This document shows, one piece after another, positions 772-26,325 of a stretch of DNA of 27,153 nucleotides; positions within the stretch are counted from its first letter, which is position 1, and every line of letters starts with the position of its first letter. The DNA is from a virus: positions 1 through 27,153 of IMG/VR virus record IMGVR_UViG_3300025133_000512. One strand, written 5' to 3'. The notes beneath the pieces were generated by a model. It saw only the letters and a program-made list of their open reading frames with translations, was not told where the DNA came from and did no database searches. Both the position numbers and the translations under genes were made by a program.

Positions 772-1728
772 TCAAACTTTTTTATGAGAGTTCAGCATTA
801 ACATAAGTTCATCAATATTAAGAGTACCGATACCATCCTTGAGAAGCATTGTCCTAATTATGGTGCGATTGAGATCAACCCCGTCGTTCTGAATCGCATA
901 TTTGAGTTTGTTAACTCCTTGCGGTGATATGGTGCTTGTATATAGCTGCATGATTTCATAATTTAAGGCAATAATTTCTTCATTATCAACAACATTTTGA
1001 TATGCCTTGATTTTATTTTTATTATTTTTTGCATGTGTTAAAATGTCAACGAGCCCATAGTCTTTATTTTCCGAAAGGAAGGGAAATCTTTTAGCCATCG
1101 TCTTTAAGCCCAGTCCCCTAACCCCTTCTAAATTGTCAGATTTATCTCCGACGACGGCTCGTGCCCAGGCAAAGTTACGAGGATGTATGCCATATTCCTC
1201 AAGCACCTTTTTCTTGTTGATGACTTGCTCGTTCTTACCAGGGCGTAGCAAAATAGTTTTATCATCGCATAACTGTAAAAAGTCTTGGTCGTTAGAAACG
1301 ATTACCTTTTGCCACTCATCATATTCATTACAGTGACACAGCCAGGCGATAATGTCGTCAGCCTCTACATTCTCCAAGGACATCTGAAGAATGGGAAGTT
1401 GCTCCAAGTATTCGGTTAGACGCACAAGCTGGTCGTATTTATTTTCCCGCTCTGCTTCCGGGGTCGCAAACTCATACTCTCTGTTGAGCTTGGGGGCTTT
1501 GCGTCCGAGTTTATAGTTTTTGTTTTTCTCCCGCCGGGATTGTGAGCCGCCAGGACCTTCCCAACAAACAACAACTCGGTCAGGTTTAGCACGGCGCACT
1601 TCTTTCTGAAGGGAACGCATAAAACCAGTCAGTCCGCCAATTGGATTTCCGTTGATATCCAGTTGGGGAGACATGACATAGTTACGGATGAACATGTTTT
1701 GTCCATCAATAATCAGCAATCTTTTCAT
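772..1728 (-). CDS. rnh: 5'-3' exonuclease / flap nuclease, T4 RNase H-like
   Basis: A 318-aa FEN-family nuclease, close to the 305 aa of T4 RNase H. It would remove RNA primers and 5' flaps during lagging-strand synthesis. Metal-binding acidic residues appear in the expected order: D8 in LLIIDGQ, E57 in VVVCWEG (many relatives have Asp here), E122/D124/D125 in VEADDI, D147/D149 in SNDQDF, and D195/D198 in VVGDKSDN. The last run leads into the helix-3-turn-helix DNA-binding segment, GVRGLGLKT, near 202-210. The start is ATG at 1728 with GGAG five bases upstream. It sits 24 bases after uvsX and 54 before the helicase. The family A polymerase nearby has no 5'-nuclease domain of its own, so this separate enzyme is the likely primer remover. 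Confidence 0.88.
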   Translation of the reverse strand: MKRLLIIDGQNMFIRNYVMSPQLDINGNPIGGLTGFMRSLQKEVRRAKPDRVVVCWEGPGGSQSRREKNKNYKLGRKAPKLNREYEFATPEAERENKYDQLVRLTEYLEQLPILQMSLENVEADDIIAWLCHCNEYDEWQKVIVSNDQDFLQLCDDKTILLRPGKNEQVINKKKVLEEYGIHPRNFAWARAVVGDKSDNLEGVRGLGLKTMAKRFPFLSENKDYGLVDILTHAKNNKNKIKAYQNVVDNEEIIALNYEIMQLYTSTISPQGVNKLKYAIQNDGVDLNRTIIRTMLLKDGIGTLNIDELMLMLNSHKKV

Positions 1729-1752: not shown

Positions 1753-2823
1753 CTACTTCTTACCTATTCTACACTCATCCTCTAGGATGTCAAGAACTCT
1801 TTTCTTAAACTTCTTATCTTCTAAGAGTTTCGGAAAGTCTTTACTTTGGAACTTTTTATCTTCCCCGTCAACATTGATAGTATACCAAGCGCCGCTGCGA
1901 ATACAGCCAGGCGTGCCAGCGATAGCACTAAGCCAGGAACCTTCATCATCAACGCCAACACGGTCGTTAGCAAGGTCAAATAATACATCGAACTGACAAC
2001 TCCTTGGTGATGGCCCGAAGCGGGACTTCATAGTCTTCGCACTGGTATGGAAACCAATGACCTGCTTCTTCTCGTTAATAATTTGTCCGTTGGACTTTCC
2101 CTTGTGCTGAGTCAACCAGACACGAGTTGAGGCGTGGTAGGGCAGCGCCTTGCCGCCGGGCTCCACTCGGTTGTCTCCGAACATCACGCCGATGTTGGTC
2201 TTCAACTGGTTAGTAAATACCAGGGCAATCTGTGCCTTGCCTAGCGTCTCGGTTACTTTCCGCATACCTTTGGCTAGTGCCTTGGCTGTCAGACCGATAC
2301 GGCTGTTGGGGTCATAGTCCCCCTCAATCTCAGCTTTAACTGGGGTTCCAGCCACACTGTCCCACACAATACAGACTAGCTTATCAGGTGCTTTCTCCCT
2401 GATGAGACCGATGAGGCGTTCAATGGTCTCAAACACCTCTTCGATCGTGCCAGGCTGAACATACATAAAGTTGTTCTTTGTATCAAGTCCTAGCTGTTCC
2501 ATAAAATCTGGGGATGCTGCGTTCTCTGTATCAATATAAACAGCAACGCCTCCCATCTTCTGGCAGTTGGCTAGGATCTGAGTCACAACAAGACTCTTGC
2601 CGCTGGCAGACTCACCAGCAATCGTGGTGAGCTTGCCGACAGGGATGCCTCCGTCTCGGCGGTTAGAAATAATATAATCAAGAAGAGTCGAACCCGTTGG
2701 AATCCAAGTCTTCACATCTGTGGGGTTGTCCCCGTGCAAATCGTATGCAATATTCTCTTTAGCTGCCTTGTTTAATTCGCTGCGCAAATCACTTACAAGG
2801 CTGTTTCCAGACCTAGTAGCCAT
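1753..2823 (-). CDS. uvsX: Recombinase UvsX/RecA
   Basis: A 356-aa RecA-family strand-exchange ATPase that would pair homologous DNA for recombination-dependent replication and repair. Visible features are a Walker A loop GESASGKS at residues 70-77, YIDTEN near 97-102 with the catalytic-type Glu, a Walker B strand ending VCIVWDS near 150-156, the L2-side signature FTNQLKTN near 203-210, and PGGKALPYHAS. The length is close to T4 UvsX (391 aa) and bacterial RecA. The C-terminus is basic and lysine-rich. The ATG at 2823 has GGAG about five bases upstream. It lies downstream of the gp32-like SSB, separated by a 64-base gap that holds a GC-rich hairpin. UvsX and gp32 act together at single-stranded DNA in T4, which matches this arrangement. 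UvsX as opposed to a bacterial-type RecA is an inference from phage context. Confidence 0.93.
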   Translation of the reverse strand: MATRSGNSLVSDLRSELNKAAKENIAYDLHGDNPTDVKTWIPTGSTLLDYIISNRRDGGIPVGKLTTIAGESASGKSLVVTQILANCQKMGGVAVYIDTENAASPDFMEQLGLDTKNNFMYVQPGTIEEVFETIERLIGLIREKAPDKLVCIVWDSVAGTPVKAEIEGDYDPNSRIGLTAKALAKGMRKVTETLGKAQIALVFTNQLKTNIGVMFGDNRVEPGGKALPYHASTRVWLTQHKGKSNGQIINEKKQVIGFHTSAKTMKSRFGPSPRSCQFDVLFDLANDRVGVDDEGSWLSAIAGTPGCIRSGAWYTINVDGEDKKFQSKDFPKLLEDKKFKKRVLDILEDECRIGKK

Positions 2824-2887: not shown

Positions 2888-3658
2888 CTAAGACAGCAAA
2901 TCGTCGAACGCTGACTCGATGTCGGCAACGCCTTCCAAGTTATTTTCAGTCTTGGTCGTGGCGTTGTTATTATAGCGAGTGGTTTCCGAATCCGTGGTGG
3001 TTTCGGTGTCACCCAAGGTGTCGTTGAGAACCTTCTCACAATCCTCGTAAGAGGAAACTTCAAAAATGTCTGAAGCGTCTTTGATAGTTTCAAGAAGAGT
3101 GTTGACTTCTTCTTCGGTCTTCGCCAGCTTGCTGGTGCGGCGCATGGGGCGCACATCAGTCGTTGGGAATGATTGACCCGACTTCTTGCCGTAGTCAATG
3201 CGAATGTCCGTACCCTTTTCGGTATCGGTAATGTCCCCGTACTCGGGGTCAAGAACTACATCAAGCAGTGCTTGGTAGGTGGTGCGGGAAAAGCCCCACC
3301 AGCGAACGCCCTTGTCCTCTTCGCCACGAACGACGATGGGAGCGAACACTCGCATCTTAGGCCAGAAGCGTTTGGCTGCTTCCTTGGAGCCATCAGTGCC
3401 TTCGTTCCAAAGGCGGGTTCCCCACTCTGCGATGGGGTCAGCATCACCGTTAGTGCGTGGGCTGAGGACGGTAGTCTTACCTTCGGCACCCATGCCGTAG
3501 TGGTAATACGCCTCAAAGAAAGGGTCGCCATTCGGCGGACAGACAAGTCGCAACTGGTGCGTGCCTTCCTCTGGCTTCCAAAAGTTATCCGAAGAGTCTC
3601 CTCCTCGGCTCGTAAGAGCAGCGTGCTTCGCCCTCATCTTGCTCAAGTCAATACCCAT
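2888..3658 (-). CDS. 32: Single-stranded DNA-binding protein, T4 gp32-like
   Basis: A 256-aa protein with the layout of gp32: a short basic N-terminus (LSKMRAKHAA) for cooperative binding, a core beginning near NFWKPEEGTHQLRLV (25-39), aromatic-rich strands around FWPKMRVFAPIVV and RWWGFS (98-124), a Thr/Asn-rich linker near 216-240, and an acidic tail ending IESAFDDLLS that in gp32 recruits partner proteins. The only cysteines are C40 and C207, so the Cys/His zinc site of T4 gp32 is absent. ATG at 3658 has a strong AAAGGAG site 7 bases upstream and a good promoter behind it (3695-3722). UvsX follows directly. Its role would be to coat exposed single strands and organise helicase, polymerase and recombinase. 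Confidence 0.85.
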   Translation of the reverse strand: MGIDLSKMRAKHAALTSRGGDSSDNFWKPEEGTHQLRLVCPPNGDPFFEAYYHYGMGAEGKTTVLSPRTNGDADPIAEWGTRLWNEGTDGSKEAAKRFWPKMRVFAPIVVRGEEDKGVRWWGFSRTTYQALLDVVLDPEYGDITDTEKGTDIRIDYGKKSGQSFPTTDVRPMRRTSKLAKTEEEVNTLLETIKDASDIFEVSSYEDCEKVLNDTLGDTETTTDSETTRYNNNATTKTENNLEGVADIESAFDDLLS

Positions 3659-3723: not shown

Positions 3724-4158
3724 CTAATTTTCTTGGGGGGGGTCTTCTATTTTAAAAATCTTCACAACTTCAAGGGGATGTACTTTAAGTTTTTTTCCCG
3801 CCGTTAATAAGAGGCAACTCTCATAAACCGACCAGTCTAGTTTGAGATCCCGACCCGTTTTCCCATCATGTTGGGAGGCCACGGCGGCATTCAACGCATT
3901 GATGGTATAAAGGGTGTTAGTCTGCTTTTTTCGGTGGACCCTCATAGTGTAAAGACGAGGGTGAAAAGGAGATCCTCTCTCGACTACTGCGTTATAGGTG
4001 AGAAGCTGTTTCTGAGGCTCCTCTGTGTGTCTAAATAAAAATATAAAGTTATTCGTCAAATTCATATTATTAGCAATGAAGTTAACTTCACTGAGGATTT
4101 CTTCCTCTTCAACATTTGTAAGAAATGAGGCTAACAAAAGTCCTCGGGAGTTCTTCAT
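3724..4158 (-). CDS. Conserved-looking hypothetical protein, 144 aa
   Basis: Not recognised. The 144-aa product has no signal peptide or membrane segment. It opens with a hydrophobic strand (RGLLLASFL, 5-13), then an acidic helix (EEEEILSEVNFIANN) and a strand NFIFLF (37-42). The middle has a basic patch, RVHRKKQTN (73-81), followed by LYTINALNAAV (83-93), which looks like a strand-helix core, then KLDWSVYESCLLLT (106-119) and a C-terminus of alternating Lys and hydrophobic residues. The composition suggests a small alpha/beta cytosolic protein that may touch nucleic acid. It lies 45 bases downstream of the tubulin-like gene and directly upstream of the SSB promoter, so it closes the polymerase-tubulin-like transcription segment. 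A role in replication is inferred from position only. Confidence 0.7.
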   Translation of the reverse strand: MKNSRGLLLASFLTNVEEEEILSEVNFIANNMNLTNNFIFLFRHTEEPQKQLLTYNAVVERGSPFHPRLYTMRVHRKKQTNTLYTINALNAAVASQHDGKTGRDLKLDWSVYESCLLLTAGKKLKVHPLEVVKIFKIEDPPQEN

Positions 4159-4203: not shown

Positions 4204-5070
4204 CTACAGAGATTTAGAAGCGTCTTCTAGGGTTTGGACCGAAGAAGAAAAGAGCACACATAAAATCATCAAATCATTGTAACTTGTCGCATGAACCGAA
4301 TAACTGACAGAGGAGGCACTCTCTTGGAAATCCTTCACATGATCCTTGATTTTTCTAATCAGTGTCTTATCCTCCTCTAGTTGAGTCGAGGGAATTCCGT
4401 AATAGAAGTGGATGCCGTCAATCGCCTCTAGGGGGTAAAGAAATTTAAGACTTCGGTCGTTGTCGAGCGATGAAATGCCATATGTCGCTATGCGACATGT
4501 AGAAGGGATATCCACCTTTGATGATAAGACGGAAGGGCTGTGATTAAAGTAATTTATCATAGCCACTACATAAGAAATAAAATTGGCTAATTGCTTCTCA
4601 TAGTCTTGGATAGAGGCGTCCTCCATCAGACCCTCAGCAGTGGACCGGTCCAGTAAAAGCACGGTCTCGAAGAGCCCCGAGCGAGCGAACTCCTGAAGGA
4701 TACCAAAAGTTATGCGATCGTCTCGTTTTTGTATTTCTGAGATCATTGGACGCTCGGGTGCCACATATAATATATTAATGGAGGCGTCTTTGATGGTCTC
4801 CAAAATTCTCAAGAGGGCCCCGTTGATAGGATGCCCCCCCTCTACCACTACCAACACCTCATCCCCTGGGCGTATAGAGCGCAAATAAATAGAGCACTCC
4901 TCAGCATCTATGTTTTTTTCGTAAGCCTCCATATCGTCCTGAGCAGGAATGGAAAGGCTCCCCCGTTCATCCAGGTCGGTGCCTATCTTGTACACCCGAT
5001 ACTCAGGGTACACTATGAGTTCATCCGCAATGGCACACCCCAAGCGGCCGAATCCGATTACTTTATCCAT
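4204..5070 (-). CDS. Divergent tubulin/FtsZ-fold protein (putative, degenerate GTP-binding loop)
   Basis: A 288-aa protein whose order of elements follows the FtsZ/tubulin fold. Residues 3-19 (KVIGFGRLGCAIADELI) fit strand 1, glycine loop and helix 1. RVYKIGTD (25-32) fits the FtsZ INTD region. GDEVLVVVEGGHPINGALL (69-87) fits the strand and T4 loop where FtsZ has the GGGTGTG signature. INILYVAPER (98-107) fits the next strand. Residues 111-175 fit the segment ending in DTLIVIPN and a long helix, here ETVLLLDRS plus ANFISYVVAMINYF. Residues 190-275 resemble the C-terminal domain, with GIHFYYGIP, a helix, and DLMILCVLF. The T4 signature is degenerate and no clear T7 catalytic Asp pair is seen, so GTPase activity is doubtful. 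The start overlaps the polymerase gene by 13 bases, suggesting coupled translation. The first 35 residues alone could suggest a TrkA-N Rossmann domain, but the rest does not fit that. This is a fold-level inference. Confidence 0.5.
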   Translation of the reverse strand: MDKVIGFGRLGCAIADELIVYPEYRVYKIGTDLDERGSLSIPAQDDMEAYEKNIDAEECSIYLRSIRPGDEVLVVVEGGHPINGALLRILETIKDASINILYVAPERPMISEIQKRDDRITFGILQEFARSGLFETVLLLDRSTAEGLMEDASIQDYEKQLANFISYVVAMINYFNHSPSVLSSKVDIPSTCRIATYGISSLDNDRSLKFLYPLEAIDGIHFYYGIPSTQLEEDKTLIRKIKDHVKDFQESASSVSYSVHATSYNDLMILCVLFSSSVQTLEDASKSL

Positions 5071-6272
5071 GCTTGAAGGTTTCCTAATGTGTTTCCGCTA
5101 CTAATATTTATCTGAAATTCTCCAAAATTTGTAGAAGACATCAACGAACAAACATCCTCGACAAGGCTGTCATCTGACTTTTTCATATCAATTACGATAG
5201 CGTCGTGAATTAAAAAAGCCACCGAGGAGCCGGAGGAGGATGAGCGTAAAAGGTAGTCTACCTTAAGGGCTTGTTTAAGAAATAGCTCGGCAGCCGTAGA
5301 CTGAACCAGATAGTTAATAGCATGATGGTCCGAGACGTTTTCAATGGTCCGCCCATAAGGCGTGGTTATATTCCCATCCCTATAGAAATTCGTCAAGATA
5401 TGTTGTTTGGGATAGAATGAATCCAAACGCTCTGCGGCAGAGGTTGTGGTAGCACTGGAGGATCCATAGAGCCAAGCAAAAAAAGCAACTTTGGCATCAT
5501 TGCGGGTAAGAGCGTCACCAAAGACCTGCTCCAGATGATAGGTATGAACATCCTCCTTCGGCTGATCCTTGCCGAGGAGCCCCAATAATGTCCGGACCTC
5601 TGCCCCATTAAAATCAATCTCAAGAAAATAATCATTAGACGGCAAAACAGCCTCTCGCAATGATTTCGGAAGAGTTAAAATAGGGAAGGTGCCCTGTCGA
5701 TTTGTTAGGCGTCCAGTCTTAGTGCCAAACTGATTATAGACTACATAGGAGGAATTGTTCATCGCTGTGACGTAGCTTTTAAGCTTAGGTACTGTCATAT
5801 AACTTCCCATTTTACGTTGGTCAAGCTGAACTTTGCGGTTACTTATATCCTCCAGCAACATAGAGACATGTCTATGAAATTCATACCGAAGGGGGCGGGG
5901 GCACTTCGCAAAAACATATTCGGTGATCTGGTTTTTTACTCGGCAATAATCCACCAGAAAACGTGAGGGGACTAAATCATAAAAACAAGTATCATTTAAA
6001 TCTACCTGTGATATCTGGAGGGAACGGCGAAACGCTCTCATCTGCTTGGAGACATCGGACCAGTCGTCCTTTAAATATTCCGGTATCACTTGGTCGAGGG
6101 GCTTCCCCTCCAGGTAAAGGGAGGCATAATCTATATCATAATCCCTTAAATAGGAGGCGAACTTCCACGTCTTGCTGATCTCCGACGGGAAATCACCCCG
6201 ATCAAAGATCAACCTATCGTTACAAAAGATGCCTAGGCATTCGGCTTTATCGTCTAAGGTTTGAAATAACAA
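5058..6272 (-). CDS. Family A DNA polymerase, polymerase domain only
   Basis: A 404-aa Pol I-type DNA polymerase with thumb, palm and fingers. FGTKTGRLT (182-190) is the template/thumb signature. Motif A is EIDFNGAEVR (218-227) with catalytic D220 and E225. Motif B holds R257, K261, F265 and Y269-G270; F265 matches E. coli Phe762. NYLVQSTAAEL (320-330) precedes motif C, LIHDAIVID, with H356 and D357 but Ala358 where Pol I has Glu. Only about 100 residues precede the thumb, so the 3'-5' exonuclease is absent or reduced to a remnant and the 5'-nuclease domain is missing. Start is TTG at 6272 with AAGGAA six bases upstream. The frame is shared with the upstream gene, whose TAA lies 18 bases earlier, so no earlier start exists and the next Met is residue 78. 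It replaces the family B gp43 expected in a T4-like genome. Confidence 0.88.
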   Translation of the reverse strand: MLFQTLDDKAECLGIFCNDRLIFDRGDFPSEISKTWKFASYLRDYDIDYASLYLEGKPLDQVIPEYLKDDWSDVSKQMRAFRRSLQISQVDLNDTCFYDLVPSRFLVDYCRVKNQITEYVFAKCPRPLRYEFHRHVSMLLEDISNRKVQLDQRKMGSYMTVPKLKSYVTAMNNSSYVVYNQFGTKTGRLTNRQGTFPILTLPKSLREAVLPSNDYFLEIDFNGAEVRTLLGLLGKDQPKEDVHTYHLEQVFGDALTRNDAKVAFFAWLYGSSSATTTSAAERLDSFYPKQHILTNFYRDGNITTPYGRTIENVSDHHAINYLVQSTAAELFLKQALKVDYLLRSSSSGSSVAFLIHDAIVIDMKKSDDSLVEDVCSLMSSTNFGEFQINISSGNTLGNLQAWIK

Positions 6273-25338: not shown

Positions 25339-25815
25339 TCAAACATTGATGCCTGAGCCTGTCAGATTGTATATAGGGGCTGGATTGATACTTGTGAGGG
25401 AAGCGTAGAGAGTCCAAAACACTCCGTCGCCAGGAGTGCCGACTTCTTTAATCCATACCCGAGAACACTTTACGTCTATGGTGATTGGGTTTTTCCACGT
25501 TTCGCCAGCAAGCACATCGTAAACAGGAAAGTGAGCATAGTGCCCGACGCTCTCAACTCGGGGATTGGCAGGGTCAGCAAATGCGAGCACCAATTGGCAC
25601 GAGTTTCCTGAGAATCCGAGACTGCTGTAGGGCATCAAAGTGATAGATTTAGTAACGGCAGGAAAGATAATTTCTTGTTGGGTGCCGGCAGCCAGAGGAT
25701 AATTGCCGCTCCCTGTTACATAAGGATATCCCGAAACTTGATAAGCGCCTGCGCTCCCTAAGCCAGGAGTCTGAAATCCCTGTCCGTAGTTAGTTGTATC
25801 CGGAGATGTTGCCAT
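25339..25815 (-). CDS. Small beta-rich protein, second copy of a tandem paralogous pair (158 aa), possible capsid decoration
   Basis: A 158-aa paralogue of the next gene upstream. Both start MATSPDT-NYG, share PGLGSAGAYQVSGYPY, IIFP-VTKSITLM, LAFADP-NPRV, VKCSRVWI and SLTSINP, and end GSGINV. It is rich in Gly, Ser, Pro and beta-branched residues, has no Met-rich or charged helices and no membrane segment, so a compact beta-sandwich is likely. Position between the bS21 gene and the scaffold/capsid genes suggests a head protein such as a decoration or vertex protein. GGAGG lies before the ATG. The function is inferred from place only; no family is recognised. Confidence 0.7.
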   Translation of the reverse strand: MATSPDTTNYGQGFQTPGLGSAGAYQVSGYPYVTGSGNYPLAAGTQQEIIFPAVTKSITLMPYSSLGFSGNSCQLVLAFADPANPRVESVGHYAHFPVYDVLAGETWKNPITIDVKCSRVWIKEVGTPGDGVFWTLYASLTSINPAPIYNLTGSGINV

Positions 25816-25869: not shown

Positions 25870-26325
25870 TTAAACATTAATACCTGAGCCACTTAAGTTA
25901 TACATGGTACCAGGGTTGATACTGGTTAGCGACGCATAGAGAGACCATTGTGATGCTGCTCCACCCATGTTTTGGATCCACACTCTAGAACATTTTACGT
26001 CCAGAGTAACGGGTGTGGTATATTTTCCAGCGCCCTGGTGATTGGGGAATTCTACAGCATGTCCCAGTCCAGTCACTCGGGGGTTGGTGGGGTCAGCAAA
26101 TGCGAGCAGCAGCACGGCACCTCCGCTATTATCATAAGACATTAAAGTGATAGACTTGGTAACGGAAGGAAAGATAATTTCCTTTATAGCGGTACCGGCC
26201 AGTGTGTGGGCTGTGCCGCTCCCGGTCATATAAGGGTATCCGGAAACCTGATAGGCACCAGCACTGCCCAGACCAGGGGTAGTGAACCCTCGACCGTAAT
26301 TGGATGTATCAGGGCTCGTCGCCAT
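25870..26325 (-). CDS. Small beta-rich protein, first copy of a tandem paralogous pair (151 aa), possible capsid decoration
   Basis: A 151-aa protein, paralogous to the gene at 25339-25815. The first 30 residues and the last 10 are nearly the same in both, while the loop near residues 65-75 differs in length and sequence (NSGGAVLLLAF here, LGFSGNSCQLVLAF there). The ATG overlaps the stop of the bS21 gene by one base (TAATG), and GGAGGAG lies at the end of that gene, so the two are translationally coupled. Small beta-sandwich head proteins in such positions often bind the outside of the capsid. The two copies may occupy different sites. Confidence 0.7.
   Translation of the reverse strand: MATSPDTSNYGRGFTTPGLGSAGAYQVSGYPYMTGSGTAHTLAGTAIKEIIFPSVTKSITLMSYDNSGGAVLLLAFADPTNPRVTGLGHAVEFPNHQGAGKYTTPVTLDVKCSRVWIQNMGGAASQWSLYASLTSINPGTMYNLSGSGINV

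Follow-up and report, generated by a model that had tools for sequence, protein, structure and literature searches.

The window analysed here, a stretch of 27,153 nucleotides (positions 1 to 27,153 of the IMG/VR virus record IMGVR_UViG_3300025133_000512), carries a series of replication genes on its minus strand. Among them lies a gene (P0001, 4204..5070) that starts with ATG and encodes a protein of 288 residues, hereafter the pseudo-tubulin, which we describe as a T7-less, TubZ-derived member of the tubulin/FtsZ superfamily on the basis of its open reading frame, an AlphaFold2 model with fold search, profile homology to TubZ and dN/dS. Overlapping its start by 13 nt is a gene for a PolA-like DNA polymerase of 404 residues (5058..6272, minus strand; Pfam DNA_pol_A), Klenow-type and with most of the 3'-5' exonuclease region absent. 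Downstream on the same strand follow orf144 (3724..4158), a gp32-like single-stranded DNA-binding protein (2888..3658), a UvsX/RecA recombinase (1753..2823) and a 5'-3' exonuclease (772..1728). This arrangement agrees with a preliminary description of the DNA, in which the 4204-5070 frame had been called a divergent tubulin/FtsZ-fold protein coupled to a phage DNA polymerase within a T4-like replication cluster. Every motif cited in that description (GFGRLGCAIADEL, KIGTD, VVVEGGHPINGALL, ILYVAPER, ETVLLLDRS and MILCVLF) is present in the frame, and both relatives and dN/dS speak for a real gene. Elsewhere in the window, near the capsid genes, two adjacent paralogous frames of 158 and 151 residues (25339-25815 and 25870-26325, minus strand) share the pattern MATSPDT.NYG.GF.TPGLGSAGAYQVSGYPY and represent a tandem duplication.

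The number of relatives grew with the breadth of the search. A first search of IMG/VR returned 7 and a later one 47 loci; the other members of a 39-sequence alignment were 44-76% identical to the window protein. A scan with a wider alignment found relatives on at least 561 viral contigs, with identity down to 30%, so that the "degenerate copy" of the preliminary description is not an isolated oddity but belongs to a large family carried by uncultured, T4-like marine phages. Four pairs of relatives with unsaturated dS gave dN/dS values of 0.03-0.05, and the gene is therefore under strong purifying constraint. One locus (L225, G009:C1:11224-12063) has a single TAA stop within the pseudo-tubulin match, either a real disruption or an assembly error. 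The protein is acidic (pI 4.65) and so is unlikely itself to bind DNA.

Structure prediction from the 39-sequence alignment gave a confident model (pLDDT 91.0, pTM 0.90) with two domains, a GTPase domain and a C-terminal domain joined by the central helix H7, and with the tubulin/FtsZ fold over the full length of the chain. In a Foldseek search against the PDB the top matches were FtsZ proteins (E 1.4e-12, TMq 0.70). By VIA-align the best match was CetZ (3zid; Z 24.6, rmsd 3.0 over 261 residues), TubZ scored Z 23.1 and FtsZ 22.5, with a range of about 21-22.5 for FtsZ and tubulin, and all 712 chains compared had Z of at least 8. Among viral models, the best match was an FtsZ of an uncultured phage (TMq 0.76), followed by other phage tubulin-like proteins. 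The proposed tubulin/FtsZ fold across nearly all 288 residues is thus upheld. A plain Rossmann (TrkA-N) domain, the outcome that would have spoken against it, is ruled out by the model and by tubulin-fold matches at Z 21-25 that include the C-terminal domain.

Sequence comparison placed the protein more precisely. The single pseudo-tubulin had no significant match in Pfam or PHROG, where the PHROG tubulin PhuZ did not match P0001, and a profile of the narrow family found no tubulin in Pfam, PHROG or the PDB. A wide family alignment of 59 sequences was compared by HHalign with TubZ, represented for Bacillus cereus by a 4ei7 fragment taken from an alignment, using unrelated ORFs and reversed sequences as controls. 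The wide profile matched B. cereus TubZ with 95% probability (E 3.1e-8, score 59.7, 195 columns) and the intact TubZ encoded by the phages themselves with E 2.7e-7 (score 56, 252 columns), while the best unrelated ORF reached 24.2 and the best reversed sequence 23.2, less than half the TubZ scores. E. coli FtsZ scored 15.7, showing no significant similarity. With the narrow family the TubZ score (29.4 against a background of 26.2) was suggestive only; the wide family was decisive. Judged by sequence, the pseudo-tubulin is therefore a relative of the TubZ branch, a result that is independent of the structure model. The kinship with FtsZ claimed earlier holds for the fold but not for the sequence; FtsZ as nearest sequence relative is ruled out, having given no signal in the narrow or the wide comparison, and a profile search for tubulin or FtsZ succeeds only with the wide family and only for TubZ. 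An hmmsearch with the 59-sequence alignment against PDB sequences retrieved only KtrA, weakly (E 0.005), as expected from the shared GxGxxG start.

The alignments revealed which parts of the tubulin nucleotide site are kept and which are lost. The T1 loop GFGRLGC (residues 6-12; 5035..5055, minus strand), comparable to GLGMGGC of TubZ, retains its glycines: G6, G8 and G11 occur in 39/39 sequences of the smaller alignment and in 58, 59 and 57 of 59, respectively, in the larger. The T4 loop, in agreement with the altered signature noted before, reads GGHPING (residues 78-84; 4819..4839, minus strand) in place of GGGTG[TS]G. Its form in the clade of the window is GG[DE]P[IV][ST]G, and in distant clades GxGx[IV]SG, which is nearer to the canonical motif and was lost in the window clade. 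No T3 GAG motif was seen in the family. The catalytic Asp pair, previously reported as not visible, is indeed missing: the T7 remnant (residues 177-193; 4492..4542, minus strand) has no conserved acidic residue, and no mainly acidic column corresponding to NxDxxD occurs at residues 174-199 of either alignment. In the model, H7 (154-176) is followed by the next long strand (S7, 194-200) with no helix between, as judged from DSSP and alignment columns, and thus both the T7 acidic pair and helix H8 are gone in every member examined.

In a tree of the family, one long branch (length 0.81) with support 100/100 separates the window clade from the rest. The distant clades carry N142 (44/47), N162 (44/47) and H170 (47/47), whereas in the window clade position 142, at the T6 position LDRST (residues 140-144; 4639..4653, minus strand), is Arg or Lys in 34/39 members, 162 is mostly Ser and 170 is Ala. 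By analogy with other tubulins, the T6 and H7 asparagines are expected to contact the guanine base. Other residues are shared by all: G8, Y24, L87, Q126, R130, S131 and G132 are invariant in 59/59 members, four of them in QEFARSG (residues 126-132; 4675..4695, minus strand) at the end of H5 before strand S6, and M171, N173, T196 and G198 are nearly so. Judging by strand order in the model, Y24 (before S2), Q126-G132 and the end of H7 would lie on the side opposite the nucleotide, where T7 and H8 would sit, and we read this conserved patch as a remodelled binding face.

The linkage to the polymerase gene is persistent. In all 47 window-clade loci the PolA-like gene ends -1 to 13 nt from the pseudo-tubulin start, the two genes usually overlapping by 8 nt, with TTG as the start codon, and orf144 is the next gene in 44/44 of the loci with room for it. 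In distant clades a polymerase lies within 0.81 kb upstream in 44/50 loci with room and is adjacent in 20; the other 6 have no recognisable polymerase upstream, and orf144 was not found downstream of the pseudo-tubulin in these clades. In L258, L261, L281 and many other distant-clade loci polymerase and pseudo-tubulin stand ~300 nt apart, a gap that could hold a single small gene. Two cultured phages, Flavobacterium phage immuto and Microcystis phage Mel-JY01, have a homologue of orf144 directly after the polymerase gene, and a wide-profile search of their whole records and of that of phage G found no pseudo-tubulin. Given this shared operon, the pseudo-tubulin is either an insertion in it or a loss from it, and the polymerase is the neighbour that it keeps. 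The 144-residue orf144 product itself (HRKKQTNTLYTINALN), common to immuto and Mel-JY01, has no significant match in Pfam or PHROG. We also observed that the pseudo-tubulin, polymerase and orf144 of locus L009 are 100% identical to those of the window, whereas RecA is 88% and the exonuclease 80% identical, a contrast that marks a recombination boundary downstream of orf144.

The model of the polymerase (pLDDT 91.8) matches the large fragments of Bst and KlenTaq at Z 25 while being ~130-180 residues shorter. D220 and D357, the catalytic aspartates of the enzyme, do not vary. Motif C of the window enzyme (5058-6272) reads HDA versus the usual HDE. No separate PF01612 3'-5' exonuclease gene was found in three long contigs. 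A PolIII alpha-type replicase is encoded as well in each of the 8 long contigs tested, for example a DnaE-type protein of 1136 residues with PHP, alpha NTPase, finger and HHH domains (L228 12051-15461; contig 3300008952_002488, 52051-55461). With two DNA polymerases per phage, the main replicase may be another than the PolA-like enzyme, which may be specialised.

Searching long relatives of the window, we found a second tubulin. An ORF above the Pfam Tubulin cut-off is present in 6/8 of them and encodes an intact TubZ-like protein of 378 residues (Pfam Tubulin and TubZ-like_C; nearest PDB sequence TubZ 4ei7), as at L058 1399-2535, L226 9974-11110 and some 80 further loci of IMG/VR. Its motifs are complete (T1 GAGQGGG, T3 GAG, T4 GGSGGGT, T7 FDATD), and conservation across 80 loci is 84-100%. 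In the 12 contigs with both genes TubZ lies 28.5-32.6 kb upstream of the pseudo-tubulin on the same strand, and a profile search recovered the pseudo-tubulin in two further TubZ contigs, so that both genes occur in 14/14 window-clade contigs with room. The window spans only 22 kb upstream, and we infer a TubZ in its own phage from its clade. In a 172-kb relative TubZ stands just before T4-type terminase and portal genes. Two small ORFs of about 109 and 127 residues, resembling membrane proteins, flank the intact TubZ, followed by terminase and portal. One TubZ-bearing phage also encodes a GroEL-like chaperonin (L229 11844-13430; Cpn60_TCP1, E 7e-64); HSP60 has been reported often in tubulin-bearing jumbo phages (PMC7824862). 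In 9 distant-clade contigs, including some of 95-204 kb but possibly incomplete, neither Pfam nor a phage TubZ profile detected TubZ, and with these contigs a universal partnership of TubZ and pseudo-tubulin is rejected.

The known phage tubulins TubZ and PhuZ are GTP-driven filaments. The pseudo-tubulin resembles TubZ (B. cereus RepX, 4ei7) in fold (Z 23.1), in its T1 motif GLGxxGCAIA, in the profile match over 195 columns and, within the wide family, in the H7 signature N..[IV]....H..N[VL]. It differs in its size (288 residues versus about 380-480), in lacking the T7 acidic pair, H8 and T3 GAG, and in its linkage to the polymerase gene, its neighbours being polymerase and orf144. Similarly, it is homologous over 252 columns to the intact 378-residue TubZ of its own clade (L058 and others) and shares contigs with it, but the latter has intact nucleotide and T7 motifs and lies beside terminase and portal. 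Its two-domain fold agrees with those of FtsZ, CetZ and tubulin from one end of the chain to the other (Z 21-25), though its catalytic side is missing and E. coli FtsZ has no significant sequence similarity. PhuZ of nucleus-forming jumbo phages is likewise a phage-encoded tubulin fold, and structure-library matches include tubulin-like proteins of large phages; the pseudo-tubulin, however, has neither T7 nor H8, and capsid and terminase mark its phages as T4-like. PhuZ retains the T7 catalytic loop and forms dynamic filaments, and reviews treat phage TubZ and PhuZ as systems that form filaments and serve in partition and centring (PMC7950403). The window's phages share a polymerase/helicase/exonuclease module with the Far-T4 phages (Rhodothermus RM378 group), and the nearest counterparts of their gp23 come from Flavobacterium immuto, Mel-JY01, RM378 and uncultured phages; neither tubulin nor FtsZ figures in the paper on the Far-T4 genomes (PMC4360716). 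We found no relatives of the pseudo-tubulin among 50,697 phage records and confirmed no cellular ones in genome_contigs, and no account of a phage tubulin that lacks T7 or is linked to a polymerase was found in the open-access literature. The family, which uncultured viruses carry in abundance, was missing from the cultured-phage records searched and escapes the Pfam and PHROG models, and so is probably labelled hypothetical in all annotations.

What might such a protein do? Lacking T7 and H8, a subunit could not contribute its share of the GTPase site to the next subunit below and hence would not activate hydrolysis there, which makes a self-driven treadmilling or motor filament unlikely. We tentatively favour, with a probability of roughly 0.45, a non-motile, TubZ-derived protein that would serve the PolA-like polymerase as an adaptor or accessory factor; no simpler reading accommodates all clades. 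It is consistent with the polymerase linkage (47/47 and 44/50 loci), with strong purifying selection and with the intact catalytic aspartates of the polymerase; the gene order of T4-like phages is conservative, however, and the synteny may stem from nothing more than co-regulation. The polymerase, or some other member of the replisome, is proposed to dock on the underside that the loss of T7 and H8 would expose in the model, formed by Y24, Q126, R130-S131-G132 and the end of H7. In distant clades the predicted pocket retains T1, GxGx[IV]SG, the T6 Asn and the H7 Asn and would probably bind a guanine nucleotide without hydrolysing it, so that the adaptor could be nucleotide-gated; in the window clade, with these asparagines gone, it would probably be a constitutive scaffold.

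The retained nucleotide-side face of the window-clade protein could in addition cap or seat the phage's own TubZ filament, tying replicating DNA to the filament. An alternative role as filament cap or nucleator, in which the protein occupies one end of phage TubZ filaments like a minus-end subunit and organises them at the replication site, seems to us rather unlikely. End-binding would follow from a nucleotide-side face that is kept and a T7 side that is absent, and a partner is at hand: in the same 14/14 contigs an intact TubZ lies about 28-33 kb upstream and is read from the same strand, with its T1, T3, T4 and T7 motifs intact and 84-100% conserved, and a phage factor organising the PhuZ spindle has been postulated (PMC7950403). 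Yet TubZ hardly varies, whereas the pseudo-tubulin with which it would be paired differs by about 50%. The 9 distant-clade contigs, moreover, have a pseudo-tubulin but no detectable TubZ, so that TubZ capping is unlikely as the ancestral role and could not have been it if these clades truly lack TubZ. A broader variant would be a two-tubulin cytoskeleton in which a polymerase-bound pseudo-tubulin seats or caps TubZ filaments, joining replication to filament positioning or feeding the packaging machinery, and in which nucleotide independence arose when the lineage acquired TubZ; we consider it a speculative and unlikely elaboration.

Somewhat more doubtful still is a static cytoskeletal scaffold, that is, hydrolysis-free polymerisation into stable filaments that organise the replication compartment. 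Both domains of the tubulin fold are complete, and PhuZ T7 mutants form non-dynamic filaments (PMC7950403), but here H8, which makes up much of the lower longitudinal interface, is missing besides the T7 residues, and there was no sign of self-association. Improbable, too, is an inhibitor of the host's FtsZ, or of some other tubulin of the host, that would act as a decoy subunit and keep filaments from growing and the cell from dividing during infection. Phages block FtsZ by other proteins, the fold is shared with FtsZ and the catalytic side is absent as in a terminator subunit; against this stand the location in a replication operon, a coupling to polymerase that persists over great divergence, sequence kinship with TubZ rather than FtsZ, and selection that is purifying, not diversifying, in the close pairs measured. 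Finally, an ordinary Rossmann (TrkA-N/NAD-binding) protein resembling FtsZ by chance can be set aside as very improbable, since the GxGxxG after strand 1 and the D ending strand 2 of many members, the weak TrkA_N match (0.12) and the KtrA hit are outweighed by the whole-length tubulin-fold match, C-terminal domain included, by TubZ homology spanning T1 to H7, and by TM values of only 0.32-0.35 between the model and the Rossmann proteins of BFVD.

Overall, the tubulin fold would be put to a new use by a widespread, strongly selected family of catalytically dead TubZ relatives with ties to a DNA polymerase. In the window clade, where decay of the pocket coincides with a separate intact TubZ, the family would offer a natural test of the division of labour between a motor tubulin and a dead one.
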